DNA of 44,498 nt, taken from the NCBI GenBank assembly GCA_029239235.1, contig JAQZBD010000008.1:1-44498 (forward strand), written 5' to 3'. A model generated the notes under the pieces. That model was not told the origin of the DNA. It was given only the letters and a program-made list of their open reading frames with translations, and ran no database searches. A program made the position numbers and the translations under genes. This DNA comes from Herbinix sp. (GTDB taxonomy: Bacteria > Bacillota > Clostridia > Lachnospirales > Lachnospiraceae). Position 1 is the first letter of the stretch. The number at the start of each line of letters is the position of its first letter. Below are positions 6,063 through 22,304 of the stretch, one piece after another.

Positions 6063-6092
6063 TTGACAGACATATCCATCACATAATATAAT
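6063..6092 (+). promoter_or_regulatory. Housekeeping promoter of the split thiW leader
   Basis: TTGACA at 6063-6068, 18-bp spacer, TATAAT at 6087-6092: perfect consensus boxes. Transcription would begin near 6099 and run directly into the riboswitch aptamer. In the present arrangement the transcript enters prophage DNA and opposes the integrase gene rather than reaching thiW. Confidence 0.85.
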
Positions 6093-6106
6093 TAGTCAAA
6101 ATTAAT

Positions 6107-6172
6107 AGTGTCGGGAGCTTGTGAACAGGCTGAGAGGAAACTGAAGTTTCGACCGTACCTGATTTGGGTACA
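6107..6172 (+). promoter_or_regulatory. TPP riboswitch (THI element), 5' portion, interrupted by prophage
   Basis: The conserved order GTCGGGAGC - P3 hairpin - GGCTGAGA - variable hairpin GGAAACTGAAGTTTC - GACCG - TACCTGATTTGGGTA matches the pyrimidine-sensor half and the start of the pyrophosphate helix of the TPP aptamer. The canonical 3' portion (ATGCCAGCGTAGGGA-like) does not follow; the sequence passes straight into phage DNA. thiW, a normal target of this riboswitch, is found just past the other end of the prophage. Confidence 0.85.
6156..6172. repeat. attL core (17 bp)
   Basis: TACCTGATTTGGGTACA is repeated exactly at 44068-44084. Left of it is host riboswitch sequence; right of it begins the phage arm and integrase. 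Sequence identity ends on both sides of the 17 bp (G/T before, C/A after), which defines the crossover interval. Confidence 0.9.
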
Positions 6173-6176
6173 CCTA

Positions 6177-6246
6177 AATATCATAGAAAAACAGCCTATT
6201 ACAGAGATTTTGAAAAATGATTTTCTATGAGTTTTTCTATGATATT
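6177..6246. promoter_or_regulatory. Integrase arm-type sites, left end
   Basis: The motif TTTCTATGA occurs twice in tandem at 6222-6243, and a perfect 16-bp inverted copy relates 6177-6192 to 6231-6246. The same 22-bp tandem motif, 21/22 identical, recurs at 43945-43966 near attR. Paired repeats inside both ends of an element, next to the integrase gene, are what tyrosine-recombinase N-terminal domains bind. The right copy touches the integrase stop codon. Confidence 0.7.
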
Positions 6247-7363
6247 ATTTAGCTTGTTTGAATATCTTATCATTATACGTCCTAGATGTATTTTTATACA
6301 TTTCTTCATCTACATGTGAATAGTTGTCTAAAGTGGTTTTTACAGATGTATGACGCATCATCTCCGCTACTTGCTTTGGGTTAACTTTGTTCCGCATCAT
6401 ATTTGTTCCAAAGCTGTGACGTGAGTCATAAAGTCGTATCTTATTCAGTTTGTTATTTTCCATTATTCTGTAGAATCTTTTTCTGAGGTATGGAGGTGAC
6501 ATTGGACGCATATCGGGAAGTATACAATTAATAAAGCTTTCCTCTGGTAGAATTTGCTGATCCAAAGGAAGATGACTATTTATATCTCTATATAAAGCTT
6601 TTTGAGCAGCGTGCAATTTATTCAACTGGCTCATGACTCTGTGATCAATAAAGACAGGGTCATGAGCTTTATCATTCTTTAAATCTGTATATTCCCCGTG
6701 ATCATCTACGCCTAATGTAGGTATAAAGTAGTCATCAATCCAATCGCACCATCGGAGTCCACAAACTTCACCCGGACGCATACCAGTAGTAAACATAATA
6801 AGATAAGCGGTATATGATTCGCAGGATTTAGTTTCCCTGAGAGATAAAAAAAGATTTATAGACTTCTCGTTCCATGTTTTTTTCTTTTTTTTCTTTACAG
6901 TGGGCTTTTTTATCCCTATGCATGGATTTGTTCGAATTTGATGCAATGAAATAGCGAAATCAAATATCTGTTTTAATATATTCATTGCTTTGTTTACTGT
7001 AGCTGCTGATTTACCAATTTGCATCATGAAGTCGAATATATCTTGGCTATCTATATCCTTAGTTAGTTTTCCTTTAAAATAATCCTTGATATAAATGCGG
7101 TAGTAATTACTGTTTGTCCTAAATGTTGTTTTCGCCACCGTTATTTTTCTCATTTTTAACCACTTATCAGAAATTGAAGAAAACAATTCTTTGTCATATA
7201 CCTTATGATTAGATTTTATAACGTTAGCTTTCATTTCTAGTTCTATTAATTGCGCATCTTCTTTTTTATCAAATCCGTCAGACCAGTCATACTCCTGCTC
7301 ACCATCTTTTATTCCTAAATATACTGCAGCATACCACTTGTTGCCTTTTTTTTGAACAGACAT
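6245..7363 (-). CDS. int: Tyrosine recombinase integrase
   Basis: 372 aa. Residues 1-50 resemble the AP2-like arm-binding domain (KKGNKWYAAVYLGIKDGEQE). Residues ~60-150 form the SAM-like core-binding domain, and the rest is the catalytic domain. Catalytic residues visible: Arg196 (TGMRPGEVCGLRW), Arg315 in YDSRHSF (Tyr replaces the first His of HxxR, a common variant), His338 (MRHTS) and nucleophile Tyr348 (DNYSH). It catalyses integration and excision between the 17-bp cores. AAGGAGG precedes ATG. A Lys-rich patch at 157-162 links the core-binding and catalytic domains. It sits directly beside attL, facing it, as usual for an integrase. Confidence 0.96.
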   Translation of the reverse strand: MSVQKKGNKWYAAVYLGIKDGEQEYDWSDGFDKKEDAQLIELEMKANVIKSNHKVYDKELFSSISDKWLKMRKITVAKTTFRTNSNYYRIYIKDYFKGKLTKDIDSQDIFDFMMQIGKSAATVNKAMNILKQIFDFAISLHQIRTNPCIGIKKPTVKKKKKKTWNEKSINLFLSLRETKSCESYTAYLIMFTTGMRPGEVCGLRWCDWIDDYFIPTLGVDDHGEYTDLKNDKAHDPVFIDHRVMSQLNKLHAAQKALYRDINSHLPLDQQILPEESFINCILPDMRPMSPPYLRKRFYRIMENNKLNKIRLYDSRHSFGTNMMRNKVNPKQVAEMMRHTSVKTTLDNYSHVDEEMYKNTSRTYNDKIFKQAK

Positions 7364-7390
7364 TATTTTCCCTCCTTAAAAAAGTGTAAT

Positions 7391-7411
7391 AAAAAAGCAC
7401 CATTGCGGTGC
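7391..7411 (-). terminator. Terminator between repressor operon and integrase
   Basis: Read on the minus strand: GCACC-GCAAT-GGTGC followed by TTTTTT. It would end repressor-operon transcripts before int, so int is likely controlled separately or by read-through. Confidence 0.7.
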
Positions 7412-7464
7412 AATACATAGGACGATATATTTGCTTATATATCGCTGTATGCATCATAATGAAG

Positions 7465-7677
7465 TTATATGCCATGTCTTACAAGCTCAAGAGCGTCAAC
7501 ATCATCGCGCTCGATATCATTATGTTTGATGTGTTGTAATTCGTGATTATAGACCTTTACTTGTTGTTCGAAATTCAATTTTGCATTGATAAATATTGTA
7601 TGGGTTCCATCATCATTTCCGAGTACAAACCCTTTAACCCTGCATGGCATGTCCAAATAAACAACCTTAATTCCCAA
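7465..7677 (-). CDS. Small ImmA/IrrE-like HExxH protein
   Basis: 70 aa with a TTG start after AGAGGGGG. The N-terminal half (VVYLDMPCRVKGFVLGNDDG..IFINAKL) is a beta-hairpin pattern. The C-terminal half carries HELQHIKHND, the zinc-protease HExxH signature of ImmA/IrrE-type phage proteins, which in other elements cleave the repressor during induction. Much shorter than true ImmA (~150 aa), so protease activity is uncertain. It lies just downstream of the CI-like repressor in the same transcript. A related 52-aa protein without the HExxH half is encoded at 43679. Confidence 0.75.
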   Translation of the reverse strand: MGIKVVYLDMPCRVKGFVLGNDDGTHTIFINAKLNFEQQVKVYNHELQHIKHNDIERDDVDALELVRHGI

Positions 7678-7694
7678 TTAAATCCCCCTCTGGA

Positions 7695-8060
7695 CTATTG
7701 ACCTTCCTTTTTTAATTTTTGAACCATTGATATCACAAAATCTATATCGCTTGGCTCGAGTTTCCTAGACGCATCAAATAAAATACGTAATTTGTCATTA
7801 ACTTTTAGACTCTGCAATCTTTCTATTGTTTCATCATCTAAATAATATTTCTTTTCTTCGCTTTCCTCGCTTTCTCTACCCAATAAATAATCAATTGAAA
7901 CGCCAAAGTATTTAGCCAATTTTTCTAGCGTCTTAGGACTCGGCTTACTCGTTCCATTCTTCCATGCAGTGAATGTTGGCTGACCAATACCAGTCTCTTT
8001 TGATACCTTATAAGGAGTTATGTTGTGGATTGTCAATAGTTTTTCAAATATCTCATACAT
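7695..8060 (-). CDS. CI-like XRE-family repressor
   Basis: 121 aa. An N-terminal HTH_3 domain (residues ~8-60: ITPYKVSKETGIGQPTFTAW, GTSKPSPKTLEKLAKYFGVS) is followed by an acidic linker and a short helical C-terminal domain. There is no Ser-Lys LexA-type protease domain, so induction would rely on another factor such as the adjacent HExxH protein or the antirepressor. AAAGGTG precedes ATG. Transcribed divergently from the lytic operon; the intervening region holds two matching palindromic operators. Confidence 0.88.
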   Translation of the reverse strand: MYEIFEKLLTIHNITPYKVSKETGIGQPTFTAWKNGTSKPSPKTLEKLAKYFGVSIDYLLGRESEESEEKKYYLDDETIERLQSLKVNDKLRILFDASRKLEPSDIDFVISMVQKLKKEGQ

Positions 8061-8092
8061 TTTGTTTGTTCACCTTTCACAAATTTAAGCAT

Positions 8093-8110
8093 ACTTCATA
8101 AAAATGAACT
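8093..8110. promoter_or_regulatory. Repressor operator O1
   Basis: acttcat-aaaa-atgaact, a 7-4-7 palindrome with one mismatched outer pair. It lies between the repressor start and the -35 box of the rightward promoter. Confidence 0.72.
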
Positions 8111-8118
8111 AAAAGCTA

Positions 8119-8147
8119 TTGACTAATTCATACCTCAGTGGTATAGT
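8119..8147 (+). promoter_or_regulatory. Rightward early (lytic) promoter
   Basis: TTGACT (8119-8124), 17-bp spacer, TATAGT (8142-8147). O2 covers the expected start point and O1 lies upstream, so repressor bound at both would shut it. Confidence 0.8.
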
Positions 8148-8153
8148 TAAGAT

Positions 8154-8171
8154 ACTTCATAGAAATGAAGT
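8154..8171. promoter_or_regulatory. Repressor operator O2
   Basis: acttcat-agaa-atgaagt is a perfect 7-4-7 palindrome, same half-site as O1, centres 61 bp apart. It overlaps the +1 region of the rightward promoter. Confidence 0.78.
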
Positions 8172-8247
8172 AAACAAGCTAATATGATTCATTATTTGAT
8201 ATGCTTTATTATTATGAATTACTTTTCCTGACAAATGAAAGTATATC

Positions 8248-8265
8248 ATAATACTTAAGTATTAT
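8248..8265. promoter_or_regulatory. 18-bp perfect palindrome in the early leader
   Basis: ATAATACTTAAGTATTAT is its own reverse complement and lies in the leader between the rightward promoter and the Cro-like gene. It differs from the O1/O2 half-site, so it may be bound by another regulator (for example the Cro-like protein). Low-complexity A/T content leaves chance possible. Confidence 0.4.
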
Positions 8266-8321
8266 CAAGTAATAATTAAGAAAAATTAAGTAGGACATTG
8301 TACCTATTGGAAAGGAGCGTT

Positions 8322-8552
8322 TTGTTATTCACTAATTATGAGCGATTTGCCGAAGCGGCCAGCGAAAAGAATTTATCACCTTACAAAATATCAAAGGATA
8401 CCGGAGTATCACAAGCAACACTTAGCTACTGGAAGAACGGGCATGTAAATCCCAAACATAACACATTAACAATACTAGCAAAATACTTGAATATACCAGT
8501 GACTGAACTATACAACGAAATACAAGACAAGGAGGAGTCTGATGGAATATGA
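8322..8552 (+). CDS. Cro-like XRE-family regulator
   Basis: 76 aa from a TTG start at 8322, chosen because AAAGGAG at 8311-8317 lies just upstream; the upstream TTG at 8298 has no ribosome site. The HTH spans ~residues 15-60 (YKISKDTGVSQATLSYWKNG). First gene of the rightward operon, divergent from the repressor, and its recognition helix resembles that of the repressor, as expected for a CI/Cro pair. It overlaps the next gene by 11 nt. Confidence 0.85.
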   Translation: MLFTNYERFAEAASEKNLSPYKISKDTGVSQATLSYWKNGHVNPKHNTLTILAKYLNIPVTELYNEIQDKEESDGI

Positions 8553-8727
8553 ATATTATACTCTTAGTCAAGTGAGCGAAAGGTTCCAGGTATCCGAGGC
8601 AACGATCCGTAGAAGAATTAAAGAAGGCAAGATACCAAAAGCCCATTTTTGCGGAAGGATATTAGTTCCGGCGTGGTTTGTTAAGCAAGGTTCAACAGAA
8701 CCGGTACATAAATTAAAGGAGGATTGA
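8542..8727 (+). CDS. Excisionase-like / MerR-type HTH protein
   Basis: 61 aa with a winged-HTH pattern (YTLSQVSERFQVSEATIRRR, IKEGKIPKAHFCGRILVPAW) typical of the excisionase DNA-binding family. AAGGAGG lies 5 nt before ATG. It may be the directionality factor for the integrase or a small transcription regulator; position in the early operon fits either. No other Xis candidate is seen. Confidence 0.72.
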   Translation: MEYEYYTLSQVSERFQVSEATIRRRIKEGKIPKAHFCGRILVPAWFVKQGSTEPVHKLKED

Positions 8728-8728
8728 A

Positions 8729-8803
8729 TTGAGTAACTTAGTATCAGTTAAAGGAAAGGAGGATGCAGCAGGTGAAATTATTAGCAAACATGACACTAGA
8801 TGA
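8729..8803 (+). CDS. 24-residue leader-type peptide (tentative)
   Basis: A TTG start 6 nt after AAAGGAGG opens a 24-codon frame beginning MSNLVSVKGKEDAAGE. It ends inside the next gene and contains that gene's ribosome site. The start resembles the first residues of Rha-type proteins, so it may be a remnant or a translation-coupling leader. Confidence 0.35.
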   Translation: MSNLVSVKGKEDAAGEIISKHDTR

Positions 8804-9299
8804 ATTAAATAAAGAAATAGAAAGCCTGCAGAATGTACTTAACAGGATTTGCAAAAGAATCGAAGCGTTAAACGGTGAAAAAGATTATTCGGATGAAATT
8901 AGCAAATATTTTCACCTAGGTAAGGTGGGCTTCCGAAAAGATACAAAAAAGCAGAATAGAACAGTTGACAGGGCTGTTAATAGAGGGGTTGAAGCAACCA
9001 AACTTTATGAACTGAGAAATAGCACTGAAAACAGAATAAAAAATTTAAAAAGTGCTGTTACCTGTATTGAAAACAATGATATAACACTTACCAAATCCGA
9101 AATTATTTCTAAGAAAATAGATGAATTCAAAGACCTGGAATGGACGAGGGAAAATGGCGGTTATAGGTCTGGTGAATGGTTTGTTAAAAAAGTCGATGAT
9201 GTGGCTTTTGCATATAAAAATGGAAAGATGCTATTTTACAAAAAGACATTGAAAGAAGTCAAAAAACTGGTTGCCATTGCCGCAAATAAAGTTAAGTAA
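8772..9299 (+). CDS. Phage protein of unknown function, coiled coil
   Basis: 175 aa from GTG at 8772; AAAGGAGG at 8755-8762 directly abuts an ATG at 8763, which is too close, while the GTG sits 9 nt away. Residues ~5-45 and ~75-105 have heptad-rich helices (LDELNKEIESLQNVLNRICK). The C-terminal ~60 residues look like a small globular domain (EWTRENGGYRSGEWFVKKVD). Hydrophilic and cytosolic. No family recognised; neighbours are regulators, so an early regulatory or accessory role is possible. Confidence 0.72.
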   Translation: MKLLANMTLDELNKEIESLQNVLNRICKRIEALNGEKDYSDEISKYFHLGKVGFRKDTKKQNRTVDRAVNRGVEATKLYELRNSTENRIKNLKSAVTCIENNDITLTKSEIISKKIDEFKDLEWTRENGGYRSGEWFVKKVDDVAFAYKNGKMLFYKKTLKEVKKLVAIAANKVK

Positions 9300-9348
9300 G
9301 AAGATTATACCACAATATTACATATTATACCATAAAGGAGGATTTTAT

Positions 9349-10092
9349 TTGAATCAATTAGAACAGAAAACAATTATATCCGTAGAAGTTGCGGATATGG
9401 TCGGTAAAGACCACAAGGAATTATTAAGAGATATACGCAGGTATTCAGAGCAATTAGCCGGGAGCAATATTGCGCTGAGCGATTTCTTCACAGAGAGTAC
9501 CTACACAGATGCAAATAACCAAGATAGACCATGCTACCTTGTCACAAAGAAAGGATGCGAATTTATTGGTAATAAGCTTACCGGGGTTAAGGGGGCTGTA
9601 TTTACAGCAAAGTACATAAATAAGTTTAACGATATGGAGCATATTATTGCTGCTAACATCCAGAACTTATCCCCTGAACTTCAAATGTTCCAAAATATCT
9701 TTAATGCTGTAGCCCAACAGGAGCTAAGAAACAAGCAGATCGAGCAAAAAGTGGACAAGGCTATTGAAACAACTCAGGCAATTAAGGAAGCAGTAGGCGA
9801 GGTGTATGACGATTGGAGAGCTGACATTAAGCATAAGGTTTCTGCAATTCAGAAAGGTATTAACGAATCATATCAGGATACTTATAACCGGTTGTATTCC
9901 GAACTTGAAAAACGCGCTCATTGTGATCTGTCTGCCAGGGTAAGGAACGGAAGGGATCGCCTTATCGAAGCCGGAGTAACTAAGACAAAGGTTGAAGCAT
10001 TCGGCAGACTTGATGTAATAGAAGCTGATGCAAGGTTAAAAGAGATTTTCACAGCTATTATTAAAGAACATGCCGTTAAATATGTGGCTTAG
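9349..10092 (+). CDS. Rha-family antirepressor with ORF6C-like C-terminus
   Basis: 247 aa from TTG at 9349 (AAAGGAGG 6 nt upstream; the open frame extends further left without a ribosome site). The N-terminal Rha domain is clear: VEVADMVGKDHKELLRDIRR, then SDFFTESTYTDANNQDRPCY, LVTKKGCEFIGNKLTG and FTAKYINKFNDME. A coiled-coil stretch (~120-170) leads to an ORF6C-like C-terminal domain with many charged helices. Proteins of this build act as antirepressors or growth-interfering regulators. In this phage, whose repressor lacks a self-cleavage domain, it may help trigger induction (inference). Confidence 0.87.
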   Translation: MNQLEQKTIISVEVADMVGKDHKELLRDIRRYSEQLAGSNIALSDFFTESTYTDANNQDRPCYLVTKKGCEFIGNKLTGVKGAVFTAKYINKFNDMEHIIAANIQNLSPELQMFQNIFNAVAQQELRNKQIEQKVDKAIETTQAIKEAVGEVYDDWRADIKHKVSAIQKGINESYQDTYNRLYSELEKRAHCDLSARVRNGRDRLIEAGVTKTKVEAFGRLDVIEADARLKEIFTAIIKEHAVKYVA

Positions 10093-10131
10093 GATGCTAA
10101 TGCTCAATTAGTAATGTAAAGGAGGACAAGC

Positions 10132-10350
10132 GTGGATAAGGCATTAAAAATAATAGCTATAATCATTGGTTTGGTATCCGGTATGAGCGTTGTTTTAATA
10201 CCATTCTTATTCGATGGAGGAGTAATAAAAAACTTCATGGTAGCCGTAATATCATTGGGTTTATCAGCGTTGATATGTGTCATTTGTATATTAGGCTACT
10301 GGATTTTATGTGACCATGAGGACAATCTAGGATACATAAGGAGGCGGTAA
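10132..10350 (+). CDS. Small two-helix membrane protein
   Basis: 72 aa from GTG after AAAGGAGG. Two hydrophobic segments (~6-27 and ~34-60) are separated by a short GG-containing turn. The C-terminus is charged (DHEDNLGYIRRR). Early-operon membrane protein of unknown function; superinfection exclusion is one possibility but nothing shows it. Confidence 0.7.
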   Translation: MDKALKIIAIIIGLVSGMSVVLIPFLFDGGVIKNFMVAVISLGLSALICVICILGYWILCDHEDNLGYIRRR

Positions 10351-10352
10351 GT

Positions 10353-10529
10353 GTGTACGGTATTACACATCGGTATATGTTTTGTATTGAGTGCGGAAAC
10401 ATCATACAGGTTAGCTTACTTAAGACAACGCCAGATAATAAGTATAAATGTCAAGAATGTTCAAAAAAAGCTCGTAGAAGCGGCAACTTCAAACGAGCAG
10501 ATAGAAAAATAACTTTAAGTGCAATATAG
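10353..10529 (+). CDS. Small zinc-ribbon protein
   Basis: 58 aa from GTG at 10353, 8 nt after AAGGAGG. Contains CIECG and CQECS, two CxxC knuckles 22 residues apart, then a basic tail (KKARRSGNFKRADRK). A rubredoxin-like zinc ribbon that could bind nucleic acid. Starts 3 nt after the preceding stop codon. Confidence 0.68.
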   Translation: MYGITHRYMFCIECGNIIQVSLLKTTPDNKYKCQECSKKARRSGNFKRADRKITLSAI

Positions 10530-10550
10530 CACAGAATCGGAGGAATTGCA

Positions 10551-11099
10551 ATGGCAACTAAATATCAAATTAAAAAATTCTTAGAAATGAAAATGAATGA
10601 GGCTCTTGGAAAACTTAAAAGTGATTACGCAAAGGCTGCTGATGAATTAAAAGTGAACTTTACAATTAAGTTCGCTAAAATCATAAGCGAGTTAAATACG
10701 AATATAGGCCTTGCTGACGATTCGCTTCGAGAGCTAATCATAATAGCAAAGGAGAACGGTGACCAATGGGAATCAAAATATTATTCAGACCCCAAAACAT
10801 ATCTTTGCAAGGCCTCCAATGATTCAAGACCAAACAAAATCACCGAGTACTTCAAGATAAAAGAAGTGGAGTTATTAAAAATAAGATACGAAAAGATGTG
10901 CGATGAAACCTCAAGAGAGTATAAAAAGTTAATTGCTGTGTCTCAAACAATGTCAGCCAAGAGCGGAATTGAATACATAAAAAAACTTGGGTTTGACACA
11001 TCTAATCTTGAGGCTGTAGAGGAATCAACTGCACTCGTTACTGTAATTGATGCTAAAAAGCTTTTCATAGGATCGGAGGTTGATAAATGCTTAATGTAG
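10551..11099 (+). CDS. Hypothetical phage protein
   Basis: 182 aa, ATG after GGAGG. Highly helical and charged, with a coiled-coil look through residues ~1-60 and ~100-140. No transmembrane segment or metal motif. The last 13 nt overlap the next gene, showing translational coupling. Function not recognised; it lies before the recombination genes. Confidence 0.72.
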   Translation: MATKYQIKKFLEMKMNEALGKLKSDYAKAADELKVNFTIKFAKIISELNTNIGLADDSLRELIIIAKENGDQWESKYYSDPKTYLCKASNDSRPNKITEYFKIKEVELLKIRYEKMCDETSREYKKLIAVSQTMSAKSGIEYIKKLGFDTSNLEAVEESTALVTVIDAKKLFIGSEVDKCLM

Positions 11100-11272
11100 G
11101 CCAGAAAGTAAAAGCCACCGGAAAAAATATGGATGTGCCTAAAGGGACTCCCGGAGAAGTGATTGAAATGACACATGACAGTATTGTTCCTTATCGTATC
11201 AGATACACAATTATCAAAGAACATTTTGCCTATGATGGAGAGATCGAGGCTGTAGAAGAAGGGACTGATTAA
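11087..11272 (+). CDS. Small beta-barrel (SH3/KOW-like) protein
   Basis: 61 aa, ATG after GGAGG. The pattern LNVGQKVKATGKN..PKGTPGEVIEM resembles small SH3-like barrels (KOW or hypothetical phage 'DUF' barrels), followed by an acidic tail. Overlaps the preceding gene by 13 nt. Function unknown. Confidence 0.68.
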   Translation: MLNVGQKVKATGKNMDVPKGTPGEVIEMTHDSIVPYRIRYTIIKEHFAYDGEIEAVEEGTD

Positions 11273-11275
11273 TGC

Positions 11276-11398
11276 GTGTATCCTGACAATGAAAGTATAG
11301 GCCAATACATATTGAATGAACGTGATCGTTTAGGGAGGCTCAAAGAACGCTTTGAGCATGAAGAGAATATAGAATCGGAGGATTTAGAAGATGAATGA
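11276..11398 (+). CDS. Possible 40-aa phage protein
   Basis: GTG start, MYPDNESIGQYILNERDRLG then an acidic helix. It fills the gap between two genes and overlaps the next start codon (ATGAATGA). Ribosome site weak (AGAAGGG ~15 nt upstream). Reading-frame fit and acidic composition look real, but support is modest. Confidence 0.5.
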   Translation: MYPDNESIGQYILNERDRLGRLKERFEHEENIESEDLEDE

Positions 11399-12380
11399 AT
11401 TAGTAGTAAAGGTAAGCCAACAACTAGGTGTAATCACAAGCAATTTTGAAGAAATAAAGGCGGCAGCACAGAAGAAAGCCGACTCCTACAAAGGGATTAT
11501 AGTAACTGAGGATACTGTAAAAAATTCTAAGGCCGATATTGCAGACTTAAGATCGTATCAAAAAGATATCAATAGAGCCAGAATTGATTACAAGAAAAAT
11601 TTCTTGGTACCATATGACGAATTTGAAAAGCTTTGTAATGAGGTTGTAGGAATCCTTGAGGATGCAATTGCTCCTATGGATAAGCAGTGTAAAGAATTTG
11701 AGCTTAAGCAAAAAGAAGAGAAGAAGCAGAAAGCACTTGACTACTTCAACGAAAAAGCTGCAGGACACGAAGAACTAATTACATTCGATGAAATATACGT
11801 TTCTGAATGGACTAACTCAGCAACCTCTTTCAAAAGCATAAAATCTGATATCGACACTGCGATTGATAATCGTGTATCTGATATCGACACCATTAAGGCT
11901 ATGGGTAGTGAAATAGAGGATAAGGCTATAGCTACATACAAGGCATCAAAGAGACTTGCTGATGCTATCAAGGTAATCAATGATTACGAGAAGCAAAAAG
12001 CAGATATATTAGCTAAAGAAGAAGCAAGGCGCAAAGCTGATGAAGATAGAAAGGCTATTGAAGAGGCGAAGCGCAAGGCTGATGAAGACAGGAAGATAAG
12101 AGAAGAGGAAGTTGCTAAAACTGCAATATCACGGCAAGCCGAACCAATAAGTCCTCCACATGTATTTAGTAGCGCAGTTTCATACAGTGCACCTATTTCT
12201 AATTCTGGTTGTGGATTTGTTAATGCACCTGCACCGCTTACCAATAAGTCTGAGCAAGGTTTTGTAAATCAAACTAACACTAAGGTTGTGTATATTGTAA
12301 CTGGTACTAAAGAAGATTTTATACAGGTTGAAGCAATCCTAAAAAACCTGGGGATCTCTTATGAAAGGAAGGATGTTTGA
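11391..12380 (+). CDS. DUF1351 family protein
   Basis: 329 aa. Long helical N-terminal region (IADLRSYQKDINRARIDYKK), typical of DUF1351, which regularly precedes single-strand-annealing proteins in Firmicute phages. A repeated coiled coil follows at ~205-245 (KADEDRKAIEEAKRKADEDR). Then come a Ser/Pro/Asn-rich linker and a small alpha/beta C-terminal module (KVVYIVTGTKEDFIQVEAIL). The function is unproven; conserved pairing with ERF/RecT/Sak genes suggests a partner in phage recombination. GGAGG precedes ATG, and the stop codon overlaps the ERF start (TGATG). Confidence 0.88.
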   Translation: MNELVVKVSQQLGVITSNFEEIKAAAQKKADSYKGIIVTEDTVKNSKADIADLRSYQKDINRARIDYKKNFLVPYDEFEKLCNEVVGILEDAIAPMDKQCKEFELKQKEEKKQKALDYFNEKAAGHEELITFDEIYVSEWTNSATSFKSIKSDIDTAIDNRVSDIDTIKAMGSEIEDKAIATYKASKRLADAIKVINDYEKQKADILAKEEARRKADEDRKAIEEAKRKADEDRKIREEEVAKTAISRQAEPISPPHVFSSAVSYSAPISNSGCGFVNAPAPLTNKSEQGFVNQTNTKVVYIVTGTKEDFIQVEAILKNLGISYERKDV

Positions 12381-13024
12381 TGGCCGATATATACCAATCA
12401 GTTACCAAGGTTATGGCTGATATGGATGCTATAGGGAAAACCAAATTCAATCAGCAAGGGAATTTTAAATATCGTGGTATTGATGATGTAATGAATGCGC
12501 TGAATCCGGCTATGGTTAAAAATAAAATATTCGTGGTTCCCGAGGTATTGGAACAGACAAGAGAAGATCGGGTGACAAATAAAGGTGGAAATATTATCTA
12601 TAGCATTCTAAAAATTAAATACACTTTTTACGCGGAAGACGGTTCCCATATTGACTCGATTGTTATAGGAGAAGCATTTGACAGCGGAGACAAGGCAACT
12701 AACAAGGCTATGAGTGTAGCGTTTAAATATGCTTGCTTCCAAGTATTTTGCATCCCTACCGAGGAAATGAAAGACCCAGACGCTGATAAATACGAACTTG
12801 GTGACAAATCAGAAGATCAACACAAGAATGAAATGGAAGAGATAGCGAACCAAAAGATAAATGATATCAAGCTTAAAACCATCCACAAAGAGATGGAGCG
12901 TACCGGAATCACGGAAAAGACAATTTGCGGTGTATATAAAATTACTACCATTTCTGATATCACAGAAGGTATGTACCCGAATGTAATGGATACTTTCAAA
13001 AATACAAAATCAAAGGAGAACTGA
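12380..13024 (+). CDS. erf: ERF-family single-strand annealing recombinase
   Basis: 214 aa from ATG at 12380. The ERF core is visible: VMADMDAIGKTKFNQQGNFK, YRGIDDVMNALNPAMVKNKI, and further on FDSGDKATNKAMSVAFKYAC. ERF proteins anneal complementary single strands during phage recombination and genome circularisation. C-terminal ~70 residues are charged and variable. Located between DUF1351 and nuclease genes, the usual recombination cassette. A TTG at 12377 is an alternative start one codon earlier. Confidence 0.92.
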   Translation: MADIYQSVTKVMADMDAIGKTKFNQQGNFKYRGIDDVMNALNPAMVKNKIFVVPEVLEQTREDRVTNKGGNIIYSILKIKYTFYAEDGSHIDSIVIGEAFDSGDKATNKAMSVAFKYACFQVFCIPTEEMKDPDADKYELGDKSEDQHKNEMEEIANQKINDIKLKTIHKEMERTGITEKTICGVYKITTISDITEGMYPNVMDTFKNTKSKEN

Positions 13025-13025
13025 T

Positions 13026-13898
13026 ATGAACAGTAAAAATATAAAAAAGTCACTGAATGCAAAATTTGATAAATGGTTAGAGAGTATTGATGATAAAGAA
13101 GTTAAGAAAGTAATTAGAGCCAATACTATCATTTCCGGCGGTGCATTAGTTTCCCTTCTCACAGGTGCTGAGGTTCATGATTACGATGTCTATTTTAGAA
13201 CTAAGGAAGCTGTTAGGAAAGTATCAGAGTACTATGTCAAGAAATTCAATGAGACTCATTCTACACATGCGGAAGTAAGAGAGAAGCCAGATGGCAAGAT
13301 TGTTGTATTCATCCAGAGTAAAGGCGTAGAAAGTGAAGACGATGGACAGGACAATCCATTTACGGAAGAAGTTTTACCCGAAGAAGTGGATCAGAAAGAG
13401 GCGCCAGTTATCGAGAAGCCAAAATATAGACCAGTATATCTTACCAGTAATGCAATAACTCTTTCAGATAAGATTCAAATTGTTATTCGTTTCTGGGGAG
13501 AAGTTGAAGATATTCACAAGAATTATGACTTCGCTCATTGTACCTGCTCATGGAGTTCATGGAACGATGAATTGATGCTGCCACAGAAAGCCCTAGAATG
13601 CATCATAAACAAAGAATTGTATTACATAGGCAGCAAGTACCCTCTTTGCTCAATTATCCGCGCTAGGAAGTTTATAGAACGTGGATATACCATCAACGCC
13701 GGGCAGTATCTTAAGATGTGCCTGCAGCTAAATGAATTAAACCTTCATGATGTCGAAACGCTTAAGGATCAGTTGGTTGGAGTTGACAGTGCATATTTTA
13801 ACATGGCGATTAATGCCATGGAGCAGAAGCAACAAAGTGACCCCGAATGGAAGGTTGATAATTCATATCTCTTTGAAGTTATTAACCGTATCTTTTAG
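13026..13898 (+). CDS. Nucleotidyltransferase-fold phage protein
   Basis: 290 aa, AAAGGAG 7 nt before ATG. Residues 36-57 (TIISGGALVSLLTGAEVHDY then DVYF) give the GG..DxD signature of the polymerase-beta/nucleotidyltransferase superfamily, with Asp52 and Asp54 as metal ligands. An acidic low-complexity insert (~97-125) separates this from a conserved C-terminal part. Homologues of this pattern are found in clostridial phages, but substrate (tRNA, protein or nucleotide) is unknown. Co-located with recombination genes. Confidence 0.72.
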   Translation: MNSKNIKKSLNAKFDKWLESIDDKEVKKVIRANTIISGGALVSLLTGAEVHDYDVYFRTKEAVRKVSEYYVKKFNETHSTHAEVREKPDGKIVVFIQSKGVESEDDGQDNPFTEEVLPEEVDQKEAPVIEKPKYRPVYLTSNAITLSDKIQIVIRFWGEVEDIHKNYDFAHCTCSWSSWNDELMLPQKALECIINKELYYIGSKYPLCSIIRARKFIERGYTINAGQYLKMCLQLNELNLHDVETLKDQLVGVDSAYFNMAINAMEQKQQSDPEWKVDNSYLFEVINRIF

Positions 13899-13909
13899 AA
13901 GGTGATTAA

Positions 13910-14536
13910 TTGTACGAAGTAGCTAAAATAACAGCTTATAAGCTTACTGATAAAGGCACGGCCTTACAAATACATATTGATGGCGTAAACCTAAAGGATC
14001 CTATTTTAGAAAAGCATATTAATAGTTGTGGTATCTGGCTTGATGATGGACGAACCATTTCGGCAGAACAGCGAAAGAAAGCGTATGCAACCATAGCCGA
14101 TATAGCAAGGCATGTAGGAGACTATCCAGAATATCTGAAAGAAGAAATGAAGTTCAGGTATATAGCTCAATCAGGTGGAGAAAAATTCAGCCTTAGTGAT
14201 TGCTCAATGGATACTGCCAGAGGATACATAAATTATCTGATGGACTTTGCCTTAGAAAATGGCATCATCCTTGATGATCTCGGAATAAATCGGACGGATG
14301 ATATTAACCATTACCTGTATGCATGTATCAAAAATAAAAAGTGCGCAGTATGCGGTAGACATGGCGAGATACACCATTGGGATGCGATAGGCATGGGAAA
14401 TGATCGCACCGAGATAGATGATAGCTTAAAACGTAAAATATGCCTTTGTAGGGTGCATCATAGCGAGTGCCATACCATCGGGAACCCAGAATTTGAGAAG
14501 AAACACAAGGTATACGGAATTATTATAAATAACTAA
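13910..14536 (+). CDS. Putative HNHc nuclease (HNHc_6 family)
   Basis: 208 aa, TTG start after GAAGGTG. An N-terminal ~115-residue beta/alpha domain is followed by a zinc-bound HNH core. The core runs KKCAVCGRHGEIHHWDAIGM, then CLCRVHHSECHTIG and FEKKHKVYGI. The HNHc_6 group accompanies single-strand-annealing proteins in Firmicute phages and is thought to act in recombination or replication fork processing. Confidence 0.88.
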   Translation: MYEVAKITAYKLTDKGTALQIHIDGVNLKDPILEKHINSCGIWLDDGRTISAEQRKKAYATIADIARHVGDYPEYLKEEMKFRYIAQSGGEKFSLSDCSMDTARGYINYLMDFALENGIILDDLGINRTDDINHYLYACIKNKKCAVCGRHGEIHHWDAIGMGNDRTEIDDSLKRKICLCRVHHSECHTIGNPEFEKKHKVYGIIINN

Positions 14537-14636
14537 CTCTAACGAGCTTAGGTATAAATGTAATATGGATACGCCACAGCACACCGGAAAGGAATGTATA
14601 ACATATCACATTGTAACTTCCTTATCCATCTTTAAC

Positions 14637-14665
14637 CCCATGGTAGTTTCATCGGCTGCCATGGG
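14637..14665. other. Hairpin before the DUF1064 gene
   Basis: CCCATGG (14637-14643) and CCATGGG (14659-14665) can pair, 12 nt ahead of the next start codon and next to its ribosome site (GAGAAAGG). It could mask initiation. The ~140-nt gap it lies in shows no convincing gene. Confidence 0.4.
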
Positions 14666-14677
14666 AGAAAGGAAAAT

Positions 14678-15022
14678 ATGTCTTATAACAAATATAAAAA
14701 TGTAAAGGTTAATATAGACGGATTCAAGTTCGACTCAAAGGCTGAGTCCGAGAGATATCAAGAGCTTAAATTGCTCAATAAGGCTGGTTTAATTACTAAC
14801 TTGACCTTACAACCAAAATTCGAGTTACAATCCAAATTTAGGCACAATACAAAGGCTATATCAGCAATATGTTACATAGCAGACTTTTCGTATATCGACA
14901 AGGAATGCGAAAAAGTAATTGTAGAAGATGTTAAGGGTGTCGAAACAGATGTATTTAAAATCAAGAGAAAAATGTTTTTAAAACTTTATGGATCAACTCA
15001 TGATTTGCGGATTATAAGGTAG
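14678..15022 (+). CDS. DUF1064 nuclease-like protein
   Basis: 114 aa. The DUF1064 layout is clear: NKYKNVKVNIDGFKFDSKAE, then YIADFSYID and KVIVEDVKG with FKIKRKMF. The E..D..ExK-like spacing is that of a PD-(D/E)XK restriction-type nuclease fold, and the family sits in phage replication modules, possibly resolving branched DNA. Located immediately before the replication initiator. Confidence 0.85.
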   Translation: MSYNKYKNVKVNIDGFKFDSKAESERYQELKLLNKAGLITNLTLQPKFELQSKFRHNTKAISAICYIADFSYIDKECEKVIVEDVKGVETDVFKIKRKMFLKLYGSTHDLRIIR

Positions 15023-15030
15023 GTGATTAG

Positions 15031-15915
15031 ATGGCAGTATACAGGATGATTCATATTTCTTTTTGGCAGGATTCATTCGTACTCAATCTGACACCTGAGG
15101 AAAAGTATTTCTACATCTACTTAATGACAAATTCTAAGACTAATCAGATTGGTTGTTATGAGCTGCCAATGAAGATTATTGAAATGGAAACTGGATATGT
15201 TAAAGAAACAGTAGAAAAGCTTTTATCAAGGTTCCAAGATAATTATGGCAAAATAAAGTATTGCGGTAGTGAGTTGCTTCTACGTAATTGGCATAAGTAT
15301 TCCTGGAGCAAGTCCCCAAAGGTTTTTAGCTGCATGAAGAACGAGTACGAAAGCATTAAAAATCCAGAATTTAAGAGTTATATTGAAAGACTATTTATAG
15401 ACTATGGATACAGTAACGGTACATTATCGGAAGACTATGGGGAAAAAGAAAAAGAAAAAAAAGAAGAAGAAAAAGAAAAAGAATATAAAAAGAATAAGTC
15501 TGAACATGAGAAAAAATATTCAGACGGTTCCTTTGAAATGAAGTGCGTAAACTATTTAATATCTTCTATCAAAACCGAAATGCCAGGCGCTATTCTCCCT
15601 AGGGCAGATAAAGAGGTTGAAAAATGGTGTGACCACATTGAGAAGATGTTGAGATTAGATAAGCGACCTCAGGATGTTGTTTATAAGGTTTTGGAGTATG
15701 CGAGAACAGATAACTTCTGGAAAGCTAATATCCGAAGCACAAGCAAGCTCCGGGAGAAGTACGAAACGCTTTACTCGCAGATGGTTAACAAGAAATCACA
15801 ACAGCCTAAACCACAGCAAACTCAGCAGAATAAATTTAACAATCACGAGCGAAGGGAATATTCAGATCAAGCCATGAGTGAGATTGAAAAGAAGCTTTTA
15901 AACAAGAGTTTATAG
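15031..15915 (+). CDS. DnaD-like phage replication protein
   Basis: 294 aa. An N-terminal winged-helix region (RMIHISFWQDSFVLNLTPEE; TKTNQIGCYE-type) matches phage replisome organisers. A Lys/Glu tract (~138-165) leads to a C-terminal helical DnaD-like domain (~180-250) and a Gln/Asn-rich tail. Such proteins open the phage origin and recruit helicase. No DnaC-like loader follows, so host loader would be used. The purine-rich tract inside the gene (15440-15500) is a candidate origin. GGTGATTAG precedes ATG. Confidence 0.82.
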   Translation: MAVYRMIHISFWQDSFVLNLTPEEKYFYIYLMTNSKTNQIGCYELPMKIIEMETGYVKETVEKLLSRFQDNYGKIKYCGSELLLRNWHKYSWSKSPKVFSCMKNEYESIKNPEFKSYIERLFIDYGYSNGTLSEDYGEKEKEKKEEEKEKEYKKNKSEHEKKYSDGSFEMKCVNYLISSIKTEMPGAILPRADKEVEKWCDHIEKMLRLDKRPQDVVYKVLEYARTDNFWKANIRSTSKLREKYETLYSQMVNKKSQQPKPQQTQQNKFNNHERREYSDQAMSEIEKKLLNKSL

Positions 15916-15924
15916 GAGGTAATC

Positions 15925-16095
15925 ATGATAATAAAAGGCACCGCTGCAGAGCAAATATTACTTAAGCGGTCAATAAAGGCAAATGAATGCACCTCACTAT
16001 GTGAATATAAACCGCTGTGCAAGAAACCCAAAGACATGACATGCGGTGAATACGTTGTAAAAATGATTACATGGGAATTGGAGGAAGAAAAGTAA
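15925..16095 (+). CDS. Small Cys-containing phage protein
   Basis: 56 aa, ATG after TAGGAGG. Four Cys (NECTSLCEYKPLCKKPKDMT then C) could bind a metal. Coupled to both neighbours: it begins 9 nt after the replication gene and its stop overlaps the next start. Function unknown. Confidence 0.7.
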   Translation: MIIKGTAAEQILLKRSIKANECTSLCEYKPLCKKPKDMTCGEYVVKMITWELEEEK

Positions 16096-16415
16096 TGAAT
16101 ACATATACCGTAATAAAAGTACATCCAAACAATGGGAGAGAAACAATTGTAGGTACTAATTTAACATGCATGCAAGTTTCATCGATTATAAGCATCCCAG
16201 CCGGATTTGTGAATAAATACGCAAGGAATAAAACGAAAGCAAAGGGATTGTACAAAATCGTGGTTGATGGGGAGATCAGAGACGAGCTAGTTGACAAGTG
16301 GAATGAAATGCTTAGAGCTGCCAGAGAATTAGACAGAGGCGGACGGATTGTAACCGTAATGATAAAAGGCAAGCCACATAAGTATGTTAAGCCGAGAGAA
16401 AGGCAGGCGGTGTAA
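16095..16415 (+). CDS. Hypothetical basic phage protein
   Basis: 106 aa from ATG at 16095 (GGAGG in the preceding gene's end; an earlier in-frame ATG at 16071 lacks one). Mixed alpha/beta with a basic C-terminus (GKPHKYVKPRERQAV). Stop overlaps the methyltransferase start (TAATG). Function not recognised. Confidence 0.68.
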   Translation: MNTYTVIKVHPNNGRETIVGTNLTCMQVSSIISIPAGFVNKYARNKTKAKGLYKIVVDGEIRDELVDKWNEMLRAARELDRGGRIVTVMIKGKPHKYVKPRERQAV

Positions 16416-16873
16416 TGGACAAACTGATCCTAGATGCATGTTGTGGTAGCCGGATGTTCTGGTTTAACCGAAATCATCCAAATGCAATCTATATGGATAT
16501 TCGAAAACTGGAAGATACTCTTTGTGATAACCGAAAACTCATTGTTAACCCGGATATTGTAGCTGACTTTAGGTGCATGCCATTTAATGATTGTAGTTTC
16601 AAACTGGTTGTGTTTGACCCACCTCACCTCCTGCATGCCGGAGAAAAATCATGGTTGGCCAAGAAATACGGCAAGTTAGAGCCGACATGGGAAACTGATT
16701 TAAAAAAAGGTTTCGAAGAATGCATGAGAGTGCTTGAACCAGGTGGAACATTGATTTTTAAGTGGAACGAGGATCAAATAAAGCTTAAGCAGCTACTTGA
16801 TGTAATAGGACAGCAGCCGTTATTTGGTGATAGACGAAGCAAGACACATTGGTTAGTTTACATGAAAATTTAA
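16415..16873 (+). CDS. Small SAM-dependent methyltransferase
   Basis: 152 aa, a class I Rossmann methyltransferase. LILDACCGSRMFWFNRNHPN gives the SAM-binding motif I (DACCGSRMF). VVFDPPHLLHAG is motif IV with a DPPH catalytic motif, close to amino-methyltransferases (DPPY/DPPW). LEPGGTLIFKWNEDQIKL is the later strand. Probably methylates DNA bases or a small substrate. The target-recognition part is minimal, so specificity is unclear. Translationally coupled to the gene before it and followed by a second methyltransferase. Confidence 0.82.
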   Translation: MDKLILDACCGSRMFWFNRNHPNAIYMDIRKLEDTLCDNRKLIVNPDIVADFRCMPFNDCSFKLVVFDPPHLLHAGEKSWLAKKYGKLEPTWETDLKKGFEECMRVLEPGGTLIFKWNEDQIKLKQLLDVIGQQPLFGDRRSKTHWLVYMKI

Positions 16874-16935
16874 TAAACCAGAAAGGAGTAAGAGGTTTGC
16901 GGCCGCAATAAAGAGCTCTTTACTCCAATAGAAGA

Positions 16936-18354
16936 ATGATAAAGCTTTACATAGGTGGCTCTCCTTGCACTAAATGGAGCATAGCACAGACTAAAGATCG
17001 TGAAACTGAACCGTCCGGGATTGGATGGGAGCTATTTCAAAATTATGTAATAGGACTCAAGAAATATAAACCAGATTATTTCCTTTACGAGAATAATAAA
17101 TCAATGGCTCCGGCAATACGGGAGCAAATAACAAAAGAGTTAGGAGTTGAATCAAATCTAATTAATTCGTCTTTGGTATCCGCACAGAATAGACAACGGT
17201 TGTATTGGACTAATATTCCTGGTATTACACAGCCGGAGGATAGAGGGATATTGTTAAGAGATATTCTGGAGACTGGTGTTGCGTGGAGGGAAAAGAGCTA
17301 TACACTGGATGCGAATTATTACATGACTACCGGCACTTATGACCCAACAAGCCAACATTCGTATTCGAGGCATATGGCTGCCGAGCCTGTACAAGTACTG
17401 AATATTAACCCTAGCGGACATGGAATGAATGGGGCGGTAATGCAGATCAATGGGAAAAGTAGAACTTTAACCACTAACAAAGGTGAGGGACCCAAGATAA
17501 TGGAGCCAATACGGATTGGAGCAATTGAAAGTGGTGAACGCAGTAGAATGTCTGATAGTCAAGCAAATAGAGTATATTCACCGTTTGCAAAAAGTGTAAC
17601 TTTATTAGGACAAGGTGGTGGGGCAGGTGCTAAAACGGGACTATATGCAGTGCCAACCATGAGAGTAACAGAAGCTACAAATGCAGGTTTCACAGAAATA
17701 GAACCTATGGATTGTGTTGACCTTGCAATGGCAACCAGTAAGACCAGACGCGGGCGGAACATGAAAGATAAATCCAATTGTCTTACAACATCTCCTGACT
17801 TTTATCAGTACATGGGAACAATCGATAAACCGATTTACGAGGTAAAAGACGGATATATAACAATCAAAGATAAGCAATATCCTATAAAACTCCAAGATGG
17901 CTATTACATAATCCGAAAACTGACGGTTTTAGAATGTATGAGGTTACAGACGGTACCAGAATGGTATGTCTTCCCTGTATCGGATTCACAAGCCTATAAG
18001 ATGTTAGGTAATGGTTGGACGGTGGACGTAATAGCGCATCAGCTATCTTTCATTCCTGGAATACGCACCGAAGAAATCGAGGCCTTATCCATGTATGACG
18101 GTATGAGTTGCGGACACATAGCATTGGATGTACTTGGAGCCAATGTAATCCGGTATTATGCTACCGAAATTGATAAATACGCTATACAGACAGCAAAGCA
18201 TAATTACCCAATGATGGAGCATATCGGTGATGCATTCCAAGTCAGAGAGCCAAATTGGAGATTTACAGCAACAAACGGAAAATCATATGAGGCAGATGGA
18301 TGCATAGGGCAAATGACGGTGGAAGAATGGTTGTCAGCGGCAGTTAATGATTAA
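16936..18354 (+). CDS. Circularly permuted DNA cytosine-C5 methyltransferase
   Basis: 472 aa. All C5-methyltransferase motifs are present but rotated. Motif IV with the catalytic Cys11 (GGSPCTKWS) is at the very N-terminus. Motif VI ENN (52-54) and VIII QNRQRLYW (84-91) follow, then a long target-recognition region and IX/X (LTVLECMRLQTVPEWY; YKMLGNGW, ~330-360). Only then, at the C-terminus, come motif I (MYDGMSCGHIALDVLG, ~387), II (YYATEIDKYA) and III (HIGDA). In ordinary enzymes I-III come first. The permuted chain should still fold into the same domain and could methylate phage DNA against restriction. The start at 16936 has only a weak ribosome site; a strong GAAAGGAG lies 50 nt upstream. 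Confidence 0.88.
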   Translation: MIKLYIGGSPCTKWSIAQTKDRETEPSGIGWELFQNYVIGLKKYKPDYFLYENNKSMAPAIREQITKELGVESNLINSSLVSAQNRQRLYWTNIPGITQPEDRGILLRDILETGVAWREKSYTLDANYYMTTGTYDPTSQHSYSRHMAAEPVQVLNINPSGHGMNGAVMQINGKSRTLTTNKGEGPKIMEPIRIGAIESGERSRMSDSQANRVYSPFAKSVTLLGQGGGAGAKTGLYAVPTMRVTEATNAGFTEIEPMDCVDLAMATSKTRRGRNMKDKSNCLTTSPDFYQYMGTIDKPIYEVKDGYITIKDKQYPIKLQDGYYIIRKLTVLECMRLQTVPEWYVFPVSDSQAYKMLGNGWTVDVIAHQLSFIPGIRTEEIEALSMYDGMSCGHIALDVLGANVIRYYATEIDKYAIQTAKHNYPMMEHIGDAFQVREPNWRFTATNGKSYEADGCIGQMTVEEWLSAAVND

Positions 18355-18369
18355 GGAGGAATGATTTAT

Positions 18370-18762
18370 ATGGATGGAATAGTAAAATTGAAACTTATAC
18401 AGGCGTTCCCTGAAAGCTTCATAAATGATAGTGGAGAATTTATAGCCCATGAAAAAGCTAACGAGTATTTTATTTTAGACAACTGCAAAGATGAAGAAGA
18501 GGTTAAATGTAAGGTATTAGAAAGACTGTCAAGAGGGGCTTTTAAGACTGAGCCATTCGAAAGTATGCGAAAAAATGATGGCTTCCATCGGTTTATGCTT
18601 GATGGTATAAATGAATTCCTTGGGACAGCGTTTTCATCTGATAACATTGAAATCATATATACATACCTTGGCAATAATGTGAACCGTAAAAAGTGCCTTG
18701 AGTTTATAAGAAGCGGATACGATATGAATTTGTTAAAGAAAGGAGCTGTCAAGGATGAATGA
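18370..18762 (+). CDS. Hypothetical phage protein
   Basis: 130 aa from ATG at 18370, 10 nt after AAGGAGG; an ATG at 18361 is too near the ribosome site. Mostly helical with conserved-looking GFHRFMLDGINEFLGTAFS. No known family. It lies in the mid-operon accessory stretch and overlaps the next gene by 8 nt. Confidence 0.7.
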   Translation: MDGIVKLKLIQAFPESFINDSGEFIAHEKANEYFILDNCKDEEEVKCKVLERLSRGAFKTEPFESMRKNDGFHRFMLDGINEFLGTAFSSDNIEIIYTYLGNNVNRKKCLEFIRSGYDMNLLKKGAVKDE

Positions 18763-19048
18763 GATACAGGATACCATCAATGAACTACATCGAATGAAAA
18801 AACAGTTATTAGGTGCTCAGGGATGTTCCGTTATACACCAAGAAAAAAATCAATACAGTGCAGAGTGTCTCAGAAAGGCTATATATGCCATTAATAAGCA
18901 GGTACCGAAGAAGGTATATCATTTTTTAGATGCTGATAACTTTGAAACTACTTGTTGCGGAATAGATATTACAAATACGGATTATAATTTCTGCCCTAAT
19001 TGTGGTTGTGAATTGGGAGAAGTTGAAGAAGTGGAGGAACACCTATGA
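18755..19048 (+). CDS. Hypothetical protein with C-terminal zinc ribbon
   Basis: 97 aa. Helical N-terminus (NEIQDTINELHRMKKQLLGA) and a C-terminal metal knuckle: TTCCGIDITNTDYNFCPNCG (CCG and CPNCG). GGAG precedes ATG. Overlaps neighbours at both ends. Likely a nucleic-acid-associated accessory protein. Confidence 0.7.
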   Translation: MNEIQDTINELHRMKKQLLGAQGCSVIHQEKNQYSAECLRKAIYAINKQVPKKVYHFLDADNFETTCCGIDITNTDYNFCPNCGCELGEVEEVEEHL

Positions 19049-19212
19049 AAAGAACAGCAGCATATCCAGAACGCCGGAGTAATGGAGAACTAAGGTTGAA
19101 CAACCAGAAAACATATAACCAGTATGAGAAGAAACCAAGTAATGTTAAGCCAGTATATTTGGAGGATCATTACGGGATAAAGAAGGAGATTGGCAATGCA
19201 AAGGGAAATTAA
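19045..19212 (+). CDS. Small basic phage protein
   Basis: 55 aa, Lys/Arg/Asn-rich. Start codon overlaps the preceding stop (ATGA) and GTGGAGG lies 8 nt upstream. Its end contains the ribosome site and start of the YopX gene. Function unknown. Confidence 0.62.
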   Translation: MKRTAAYPERRSNGELRLNNQKTYNQYEKKPSNVKPVYLEDHYGIKKEIGNAKGN

Positions 19213-19606
19213 GTTTAGAGCATGGATAAAAGCAAATAAAAGAATGGAACTTTGTGTCGATGTTAATCCATTTTACATAGGCGATTGCGATAGGCTCCAC
19301 TGGAAGCATAATGAAGTTGAGTTAATGCAATATACCGGATTAAATGATAATTCAGATTGTCTGCCAAACGGTCAAGAGGACAAGGAAGTATTTGAAGGTG
19401 ATATTATATCCGTGGGTTACAAGGATAAGGCAATTAAGGCTTGTGTAAAGTTTGAAATGGGAATGTTTATTATGGTATCAGATGAATTTGAGGATGGGTA
19501 TATACCAATCTATGAAGTAGCTAATCAAGATAGGGATTATGGATGGATTGATGGAATAGTGATTGGCAATATCTACGAGAACCCGGAGCTGTTAGAAATC
19601 AAATAA
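19196..19606 (+). CDS. YopX family protein
   Basis: 136 aa from ATG at 19196 (AAGAAGGAG 8 nt upstream). The YopX layout is obvious: QREIKFRAWIKANKRM, LMQYTGLND, GQEDKEVFEGDIISVG and the C-terminal GIVIGNIYENPELLE. Named for a B. subtilis SPbeta protein, the family is widespread in Firmicute phages; it forms a beta-rich ring-like oligomer in crystal structures, with role unknown. Confidence 0.92.
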   Translation: MQREIKFRAWIKANKRMELCVDVNPFYIGDCDRLHWKHNEVELMQYTGLNDNSDCLPNGQEDKEVFEGDIISVGYKDKAIKACVKFEMGMFIMVSDEFEDGYIPIYEVANQDRDYGWIDGIVIGNIYENPELLEIK

Positions 19607-19780
19607 AATAACTGCCCCAACAATCGCCAAACCGCAAGGACAGTTATTTAGTATAGGTGGATAAGACCTATACAATAATGGTAATACATGGTAAGGCGAA
19701 TTGATACATGTAAATTATGGTAGAAAAACTAGGAATTGTAAACTAATAATTTAAGCTCTTTAGAGCAGAAAGAAGGTACC

Positions 19781-20170
19781 ATGGACTTACAAGAAGGTAA
19801 GTGGTCATACAACAGACCGCACGATGAATATTGGAATCGCGGTTTATTCGATACAAAGGAAGAAGCCGAAAAGGAAGCTATTGAGTACGGTAAGGAATGC
19901 GGAATTCCAATGGTAGAAGTAGGGGAATGCACTTTATTATCACTCCCCAATTATATAGATTCCGATGATATTCTTGAGAAGCTACAACAGCAATATTCCG
20001 ATGAAGCAGGAGGGGAATATGAAGATGATTTATATGATGATGTCAAAAAAGAGGATTTGGAGTGGTTGGAGGAACAAATAAGTAAGGTTATTGATGCTTT
20101 CCACGAAAGAGCAAAGGTTGAGTCAAATTGGTATACGGTATCAAATGTTTACGAAGTCAATGTGAACTAA
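19781..20170 (+). CDS. Hypothetical acidic phage protein
   Basis: 129 aa, ATG after AGAAAGAAGG. The N-terminus WSYNRPHDEYWNRGLFDTKE looks like a small beta domain common in phage 'DUF' proteins. The middle is very acidic (YEDDLYDDVKKEDLEW). Preceded by a 174-bp gap with only a weak 9-bp hairpin (AAATAACTG/CAGTTATTT, ~19606-19651). Function not recognised. Confidence 0.7.
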   Translation: MDLQEGKWSYNRPHDEYWNRGLFDTKEEAEKEAIEYGKECGIPMVEVGECTLLSLPNYIDSDDILEKLQQQYSDEAGGEYEDDLYDDVKKEDLEWLEEQISKVIDAFHERAKVESNWYTVSNVYEVNVN

Positions 20171-20234
20171 ACTTAATAAATTATCTGCTTATGAGGATAC
20201 CGGGTTAGAGCCGGAAGAAATTATAGGACTACAA

Positions 20235-20779: not shown

Positions 20780-20835
20780 TACTAAAACCAAATTACAATA
20801 GCTCTCAGGGCTAAATACAAGATCAAGGAGGATAC

Positions 20836-21618: not shown

Positions 21619-21669
21619 AAACTGAATATTAGCTAGTAGAAAACAACTGAAAAATTTTCTAAATAACTA

Positions 21670-21727: not shown

Positions 21728-21743
21728 ATAGGAGAACGAACAA

Positions 21744-22250: not shown

Positions 22251-22259
22251 ATGATAAAG

Positions 22260-22291: not shown

Positions 22292-22304
22292 TTTTAATTA
22301 TATT

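Follow-up and report, generated by a model that had tools for sequence, protein, structure and literature searches.

A siphovirus prophage within the thiW-thiC TPP riboswitch of Herbinix sp. and an apparently missing 3' half of the aptamer

The analyzed stretch of Herbinix sp. DNA (44,498 nucleotides, hereafter the window) contains a siphovirus-type prophage of 37.9 kb bounded by two 17-bp copies of TACCTGATTTGGGTACA. A promoter and the 5' part of a TPP aptamer are located at attL, and the 5' part of thiW lies behind attR (Table 1). The element combines a direct-repeat core with an adjacent integrase gene, whose end is 72 bp away from the left core, and phage structural genes; judged by its PHROGs content, the prophage looks complete. 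The core repeat is exact, and the next longest repeat common to the two flanks is 11 bp (400 and 350 bases compared). The first 15 core bases occur at two sites only in the 4.97-Mb draft assembly, attL and attR. The core has the layout TACC-TGATTTG-GGTA, with short inverted arms flanking 7 bp, as would be expected of a tyrosine recombinase, and the paired copies of TTTCTATGA at both phage ends are probably integrase arm-type sites. The assembly contains no attP contig and no empty-site contig.

Table 1. Features of the thiW locus and the prophage (positions are those of the window).
Feature	Position	Strand	Evidence
Native promoter of the thi riboswitch leader	6063..6092	+	TTGACA-18-TATAAT, 12/12 consensus, sigma-70-type; promoter region of G023 aligns
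TPP aptamer, 5' part, up to GGGTA, cut by the prophage	6101..6170	+	RF00059, 25.1 bits; 83-93% identity to intact riboswitches of the same genus (n = 7)
Prophage, core to core (unit 37,912 bp)	6156..44084		PHROGs: integrase, repressors, anti-repressor, terminase, portal, capsid, tape measure, endolysin
attL core, 17 bp	6156..6172	+	Exact direct repeat of 44068-44084
TTTCTATGA twice, 12 bp apart, phage side of attL	6222..6243	+	Repeat of 43945-43966; putative arm-type sites
Tyrosine integrase gene	6245..7363	-	phrog_1, E 1.2e-58; Pfam Phage_integrase and Arm-DNA-bind_4
Hairpin resembling a terminator, with a T run behind it, ahead of attR	43865..43902	+	Predicted fold; not listed by the consensus terminator scan
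TTTCTATGA twice, 12 bp apart, phage side of attR	43945..43966	+	Repeat of 6222-6243; putative arm-type sites
attR core, 17 bp	44068..44084	+	Exact direct repeat of 6156-6172
Leader repeat copy, 5'-truncated, replacing riboswitch 3' half and terminator	44083..44171	+	Ends at the thiW ATG; at least 77 first bases matched at nine other places
thiW, 5' part	44169..44498	+	TIGR02359, 130.8 bits (cut-off 84.35); PF09512; window ends inside thiW

The integrase has no relatives at E 1e-60 among 396 other genomes of the family, which are a sample of a larger group. Viral contigs yielded one relative at 26%, genome contigs yielded two, at 26% and 23%, and all 314 matches to phage records fell below 60% identity. 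The exact 17-mer core is also present in six viral contigs. Since their surroundings appear unrelated by eye and none of the six has an RF00059 match at gathering, these matches were taken as chance, and the idea that other phages share this attachment core was dropped. The prophage also carries a tRNA-Met (CAT) gene (22438-22514) and encodes on the minus strand a KilA-N protein (41273-42136; phrog_6287, E 3.4e-51; Pfam KilA-N) that resembles the BstA abortive-infection family and has no NCBIfam match.

A perfect promoter and a recognizable 5' TPP aptamer had been described at attL in the first-pass annotation, and both descriptions held up, the aptamer with a score below gathering: the RF00059 alignment covers positions 6101-6187, and the gathering score is 54.3 bits. 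The conserved 5' half with CUGAGA is present at attL, as seen in this alignment and in the identity to seven intact relatives. The conserved 3' half (UAAUnCC..CGUAGGGA) is absent at attL, at attR and in the joined flanks, and a search of the assembly that allowed up to two mismatches located it nowhere. The whole window contains no RF00059 match at gathering, and the attR side (43950-44300) gave no match up to E = 10. The core had been placed inside the conserved P4 sequence; it does cover J3-2, P4 and L5 of the aptamer, but its final CA is not riboswitch sequence, and all seven intact relatives examined have GGRTAATGCC at this core-end position. One intact TPP riboswitch is present elsewhere in the same genome (contig C94, 66.7 bits), where it precedes a membrane protein gene, thiamin transporter-like by eye, and not thiW; no independent intact riboswitch, which would have counted against the first-pass proposal, was found upstream of thiW.

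The intact form of the locus was found in relatives (98 genomes searched, 33 of them from the same genus). In seven same-genus genomes, a riboswitch shares 83-93% identity with the sequence ending at 6170 and scores 57.1-60.6 bits, above RF00059 gathering. All seven riboswitches continue into GGRTAATGCCAACGTAGGGAAT and then, by eye, into a terminator-like hairpin. They are followed by thiW and thiC in five genomes (G004, G006, G012, G023 and G029), where the thiW ATG lies 108-272 bases past the core position, and by thiC alone in two (G002 and G003); thiC in relatives was identified by eye. Neither flank has a strong match in the remaining 26 genomes of the genus; in G001, a different part of the query is weakly matched. 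The place of the riboswitch is thus upstream of thiW, an arrangement that exists without a prophage in the same genus. These results support the proposal that the prophage occupies an attachment site in the TPP aptamer of the thi operon and separates thiW from its promoter and 5' aptamer. The exact empty site of this species is in no prophage-free relative among the 34 genomes of the genus, and the empty site used here is a reconstruction. In an order-level relative (G076, contig C17, locus L025, about 1480-1760), two tandem TPP-like aptamers were seen by eye, the first of which looks degenerate at its 3' end.

As the first-pass annotation had it, thiW lies close behind attR, with its ATG 84 bases past the core. 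The gene runs on into contig C102 through a 99-bp overlap with contig C6, and the next gene is thiC (NF009895, 594.2 bits). The interval between the core and the ATG is filled by a copy of a leader repeat, whose full copies read approximately AAGTTTGAAAGAAAGTCACTTTCAAACTATTTATTAAGGCCTATTCAC..GAATAGGTCATCAAAAAGTGAAAGGCACGGGTRTAnnnATG; the thiW copy is without about 22 first bases of these. The repeat is multicopy, has inverted repeats and ends at gene starts (44083-44171; loci L054-L082 and L087-L116). The upstream part is present in 37 distinct copies, of which 31 have an ATG exactly three bases past GGGTRTA, and 25 of 34 leader-repeat ATGs start a frame of 60 amino acids or more. Matches in relatives number at least 40 in G023, four in G029, one in G015 and none in G031. 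A role as a ligand-specific riboswitch is not favored, because the genes that follow the repeat share no common theme by eye (24 places of 31 matches) and no Rfam match at gathering was found in six loci with full copies. The repeat looks like a mobile leader with a ribosome-binding region.

Transcription of thiW from a phage promoter was considered and rejected: the consensus scan lists no plus-strand promoter between 43800 and 44300, and a weaker promoter-like site recognized by eye (TTGATT-17-TATTGT, 44016-44044) is below the scan threshold. The predicted hairpin ahead of attR may mark the end of phage transcription. Small plus-strand frames near attR include 43003-43317, which is HTH-like by eye, and one of about 52 codons starting at 43680, upstream of the hairpin.

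The first-pass annotation had further proposed that excision restores thiamin control, the prophage acting as a regulatory switch. This part was not supported. When scored with an nhmmer profile of the seven genus riboswitches, the intact G023 riboswitch, itself a member of the profile and used as the yardstick, reached 107.6 bits (positions 2-102), compared with 73.1 bits for attL (2-74), 72.1 bits for the joined flanks (2-73) and 6.5 bits for attR. Joining the flanks therefore brings no gain in the aptamer match, and excision should leave the riboswitch broken.

In the best explanation, a temperate siphovirus integrated by means of its own tyrosine integrase at the 17-bp core within the thiW-thiC TPP riboswitch. 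The sequence shows that the insertion separates thiW-thiC from the native promoter and the 5' aptamer, and on the thiW side the remainder of the aptamer and the terminator appear to be gone, the leader repeat filling the gap from core to ATG, as far as the sequence, a draft assembly at this junction, can tell. With the 3' half and terminator lost at thiW, the lysogen and the excised chromosome alike should be without a TPP-responsive thiW-thiC leader. In the lysogen, expression of thiW-thiC would have to start in sequence on the attR side or further downstream and would probably be unresponsive to TPP, and the leader of the excised chromosome would consist of the promoter, half an aptamer and the leader repeat, with no TPP-controlled terminator. 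We give this reading as a whole, including a deletion that probably came first and a pattern that recurs in other bacteria, a probability of roughly 80%.

The deletion probably preceded integration, since the junction sits right at the core's edge. In the reverse order, integration would have disrupted a riboswitch that was still whole, and a terminator that had become useless would have been lost later in the lysogen, freeing thiW expression; this is the less probable course, at something like one chance in four. A leftover terminator without the 5' half would be expected to repress thiW, so that its loss could be favored by selection, and the terminator of G023 holds TTGGGTACA; recombination between this sequence and TTTGGGTA in the core would make a later deletion by short homology possible. 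However, such a deletion must start at the core edge and bring in CA, the two bases found directly after the core on the phage side as well.

Two further explanations are improbable. The genome is a draft of 4.97 Mb in 345 contigs, in which the attR junction enters a repeat, misjoins are possible and contig C6 ends within thiW. The leader repeat, which is multicopy and also opens contig C150, could have misled the contig to a wrong neighbor, the true attR keeping the 3' half before thiW. We regard such an artifact as quite unlikely: the riboswitch 3' half turned up nowhere in the assembly at up to two mismatches, the 99-bp overlap of C6 and C102 suggests an assembly word of at least 99 bp, longer than the 89-base truncated copy, and a thi riboswitch at attL with thiW at attR is what a single insertion predicts. 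A reversible switch, in which excision puts a working riboswitch back in front of thiW and thereby brings thiamin control back, is slightly less probable still. It would suit an attachment site within the aptamer and a complete-looking prophage, and has a precedent in B. subtilis, where excision of SPbeta restores spsM (PMC4191935). However, the piece of riboswitch needed on the thiW side is missing there, its place being taken by the leader repeat copy, and was not found elsewhere in the assembly; the joined flanks score like attL alone, so that on sequence grounds no functional unit is restored.

Insertions into TPP aptamers were also found at thiM of E. coli. A search of IMG/VR for the TPP aptamer 3' half gave nine stretches; three are riboswitches above gathering, and the other six start with the thiM leader and the aptamer 3' half, continue into element DNA and in no case reach gathering. 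The 5'-half pattern matched 116 viral stretches, and the three that also have the 3'-half pattern (L137, L174 and L206) were examined. The E. coli thiM regions looked at were those of the element-bearing UMNF18, 2014-01-7375, Al Ain and PI12, together with CPww7. UMNF18 and the isolate 2014-01-7375 carry an integrase-bearing element between thiM and rcnR, with flanking repeats of 14 and 15 bp within the aptamer. Their thiM regions have no RF00059 match at gathering, compared with 71.2 bits in K-12. The UMNF18 element has capsid (TIGR01554), portal and terminase genes and no annotated tail genes, and that of 2014-01-7375 has no annotated capsid gene; we take both to resemble capsid-forming PICIs. 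A similar capsid-bearing element is found beside thiM in the O157 strain Al Ain, where the region covered ends inside the integrase. In CPww7, a TPP riboswitch is annotated at thiM, and an integrase gene lies between it and rcnR.

The island in E. coli PI12 is a different one, with 48-bp repeats, and supplies a 5' half of its own. It has a complete TPP riboswitch at each end (L250, 3439-3535 and 14985-15079): the one next to thiM, rebuilt from island sequence, reaches 73.6 bits, and the outer one 60.2 bits. Among 5426 E. coli genomes, an 85-base aptamer query was matched over at least 80% in one place in 5299, partially in 74 and not at all in 53. These counts represent megablast coverage, with 5646 places in 5373 genomes, 273 beyond one per genome. 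A query spanning the element-aptamer junction was matched over at least 80% in 75 of the 5426. The integrases of the window, UMNF18 and PI12 all have a Phage_integrase domain and show no significant BLASTP similarity to one another (E 0.027 or worse).

The usual descriptions place attachment sites in tRNA, tmRNA or coding genes, or call them 'intergenic'. Full-text literature searches, with subscription papers mostly outside their range and therefore weak as evidence of absence, returned no paper reporting that a phage or island attaches within a riboswitch. The earlier characterization of this site as unusual fits the searchable literature, but other elements do likewise at E. coli thiM. The window is an ordinary case of site-specific integration into a target that is unusual yet repeatedly used. 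We consider it somewhat more probable than its opposite that TPP aptamers form a recurring class of attachment sites like tRNA genes, used by unrelated integrases in distant bacteria, with some elements rebuilding the sensor and others not, so that TPP control is either kept or removed. Some 'intergenic' attachment sites may be conserved regulatory RNAs; if so, lysogeny and island carriage would alter vitamin regulation predictably, and riboswitch rebuilding by an element would be a testable trait. The window also illustrates site decay, in which the other half of a split aptamer can vanish permanently.

The closest parallels to the window are the elements of UMNF18 and 2014-01-7375, in which a tyrosine-integrase element likewise splits the TPP aptamer of a thiamin gene between core repeats of 14-15 bp and does not rebuild it. 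They differ from the window in that the 3' half is kept beside thiM and their core lies just 5' of the window's core, and the UMNF18 integrase is unrelated to that of the window by BLASTP. The PI12 island is also an integrase-bearing insertion in a TPP aptamer, with 48-bp repeats; in contrast to the prophage, it carries a replacement 5' half and leaves the thiM-side riboswitch complete. Integration into tRNA and tmRNA genes (PMC12884075) is similar in that attB is a conserved RNA-coding sequence, whereas the target in the window is a regulatory aptamer that is not reconstituted. SPbeta in spsM of B. subtilis (PMC4191935) is another prophage interrupting a functional unit of its host; its excision makes the gene whole again, whereas the unit in the window would stay broken.
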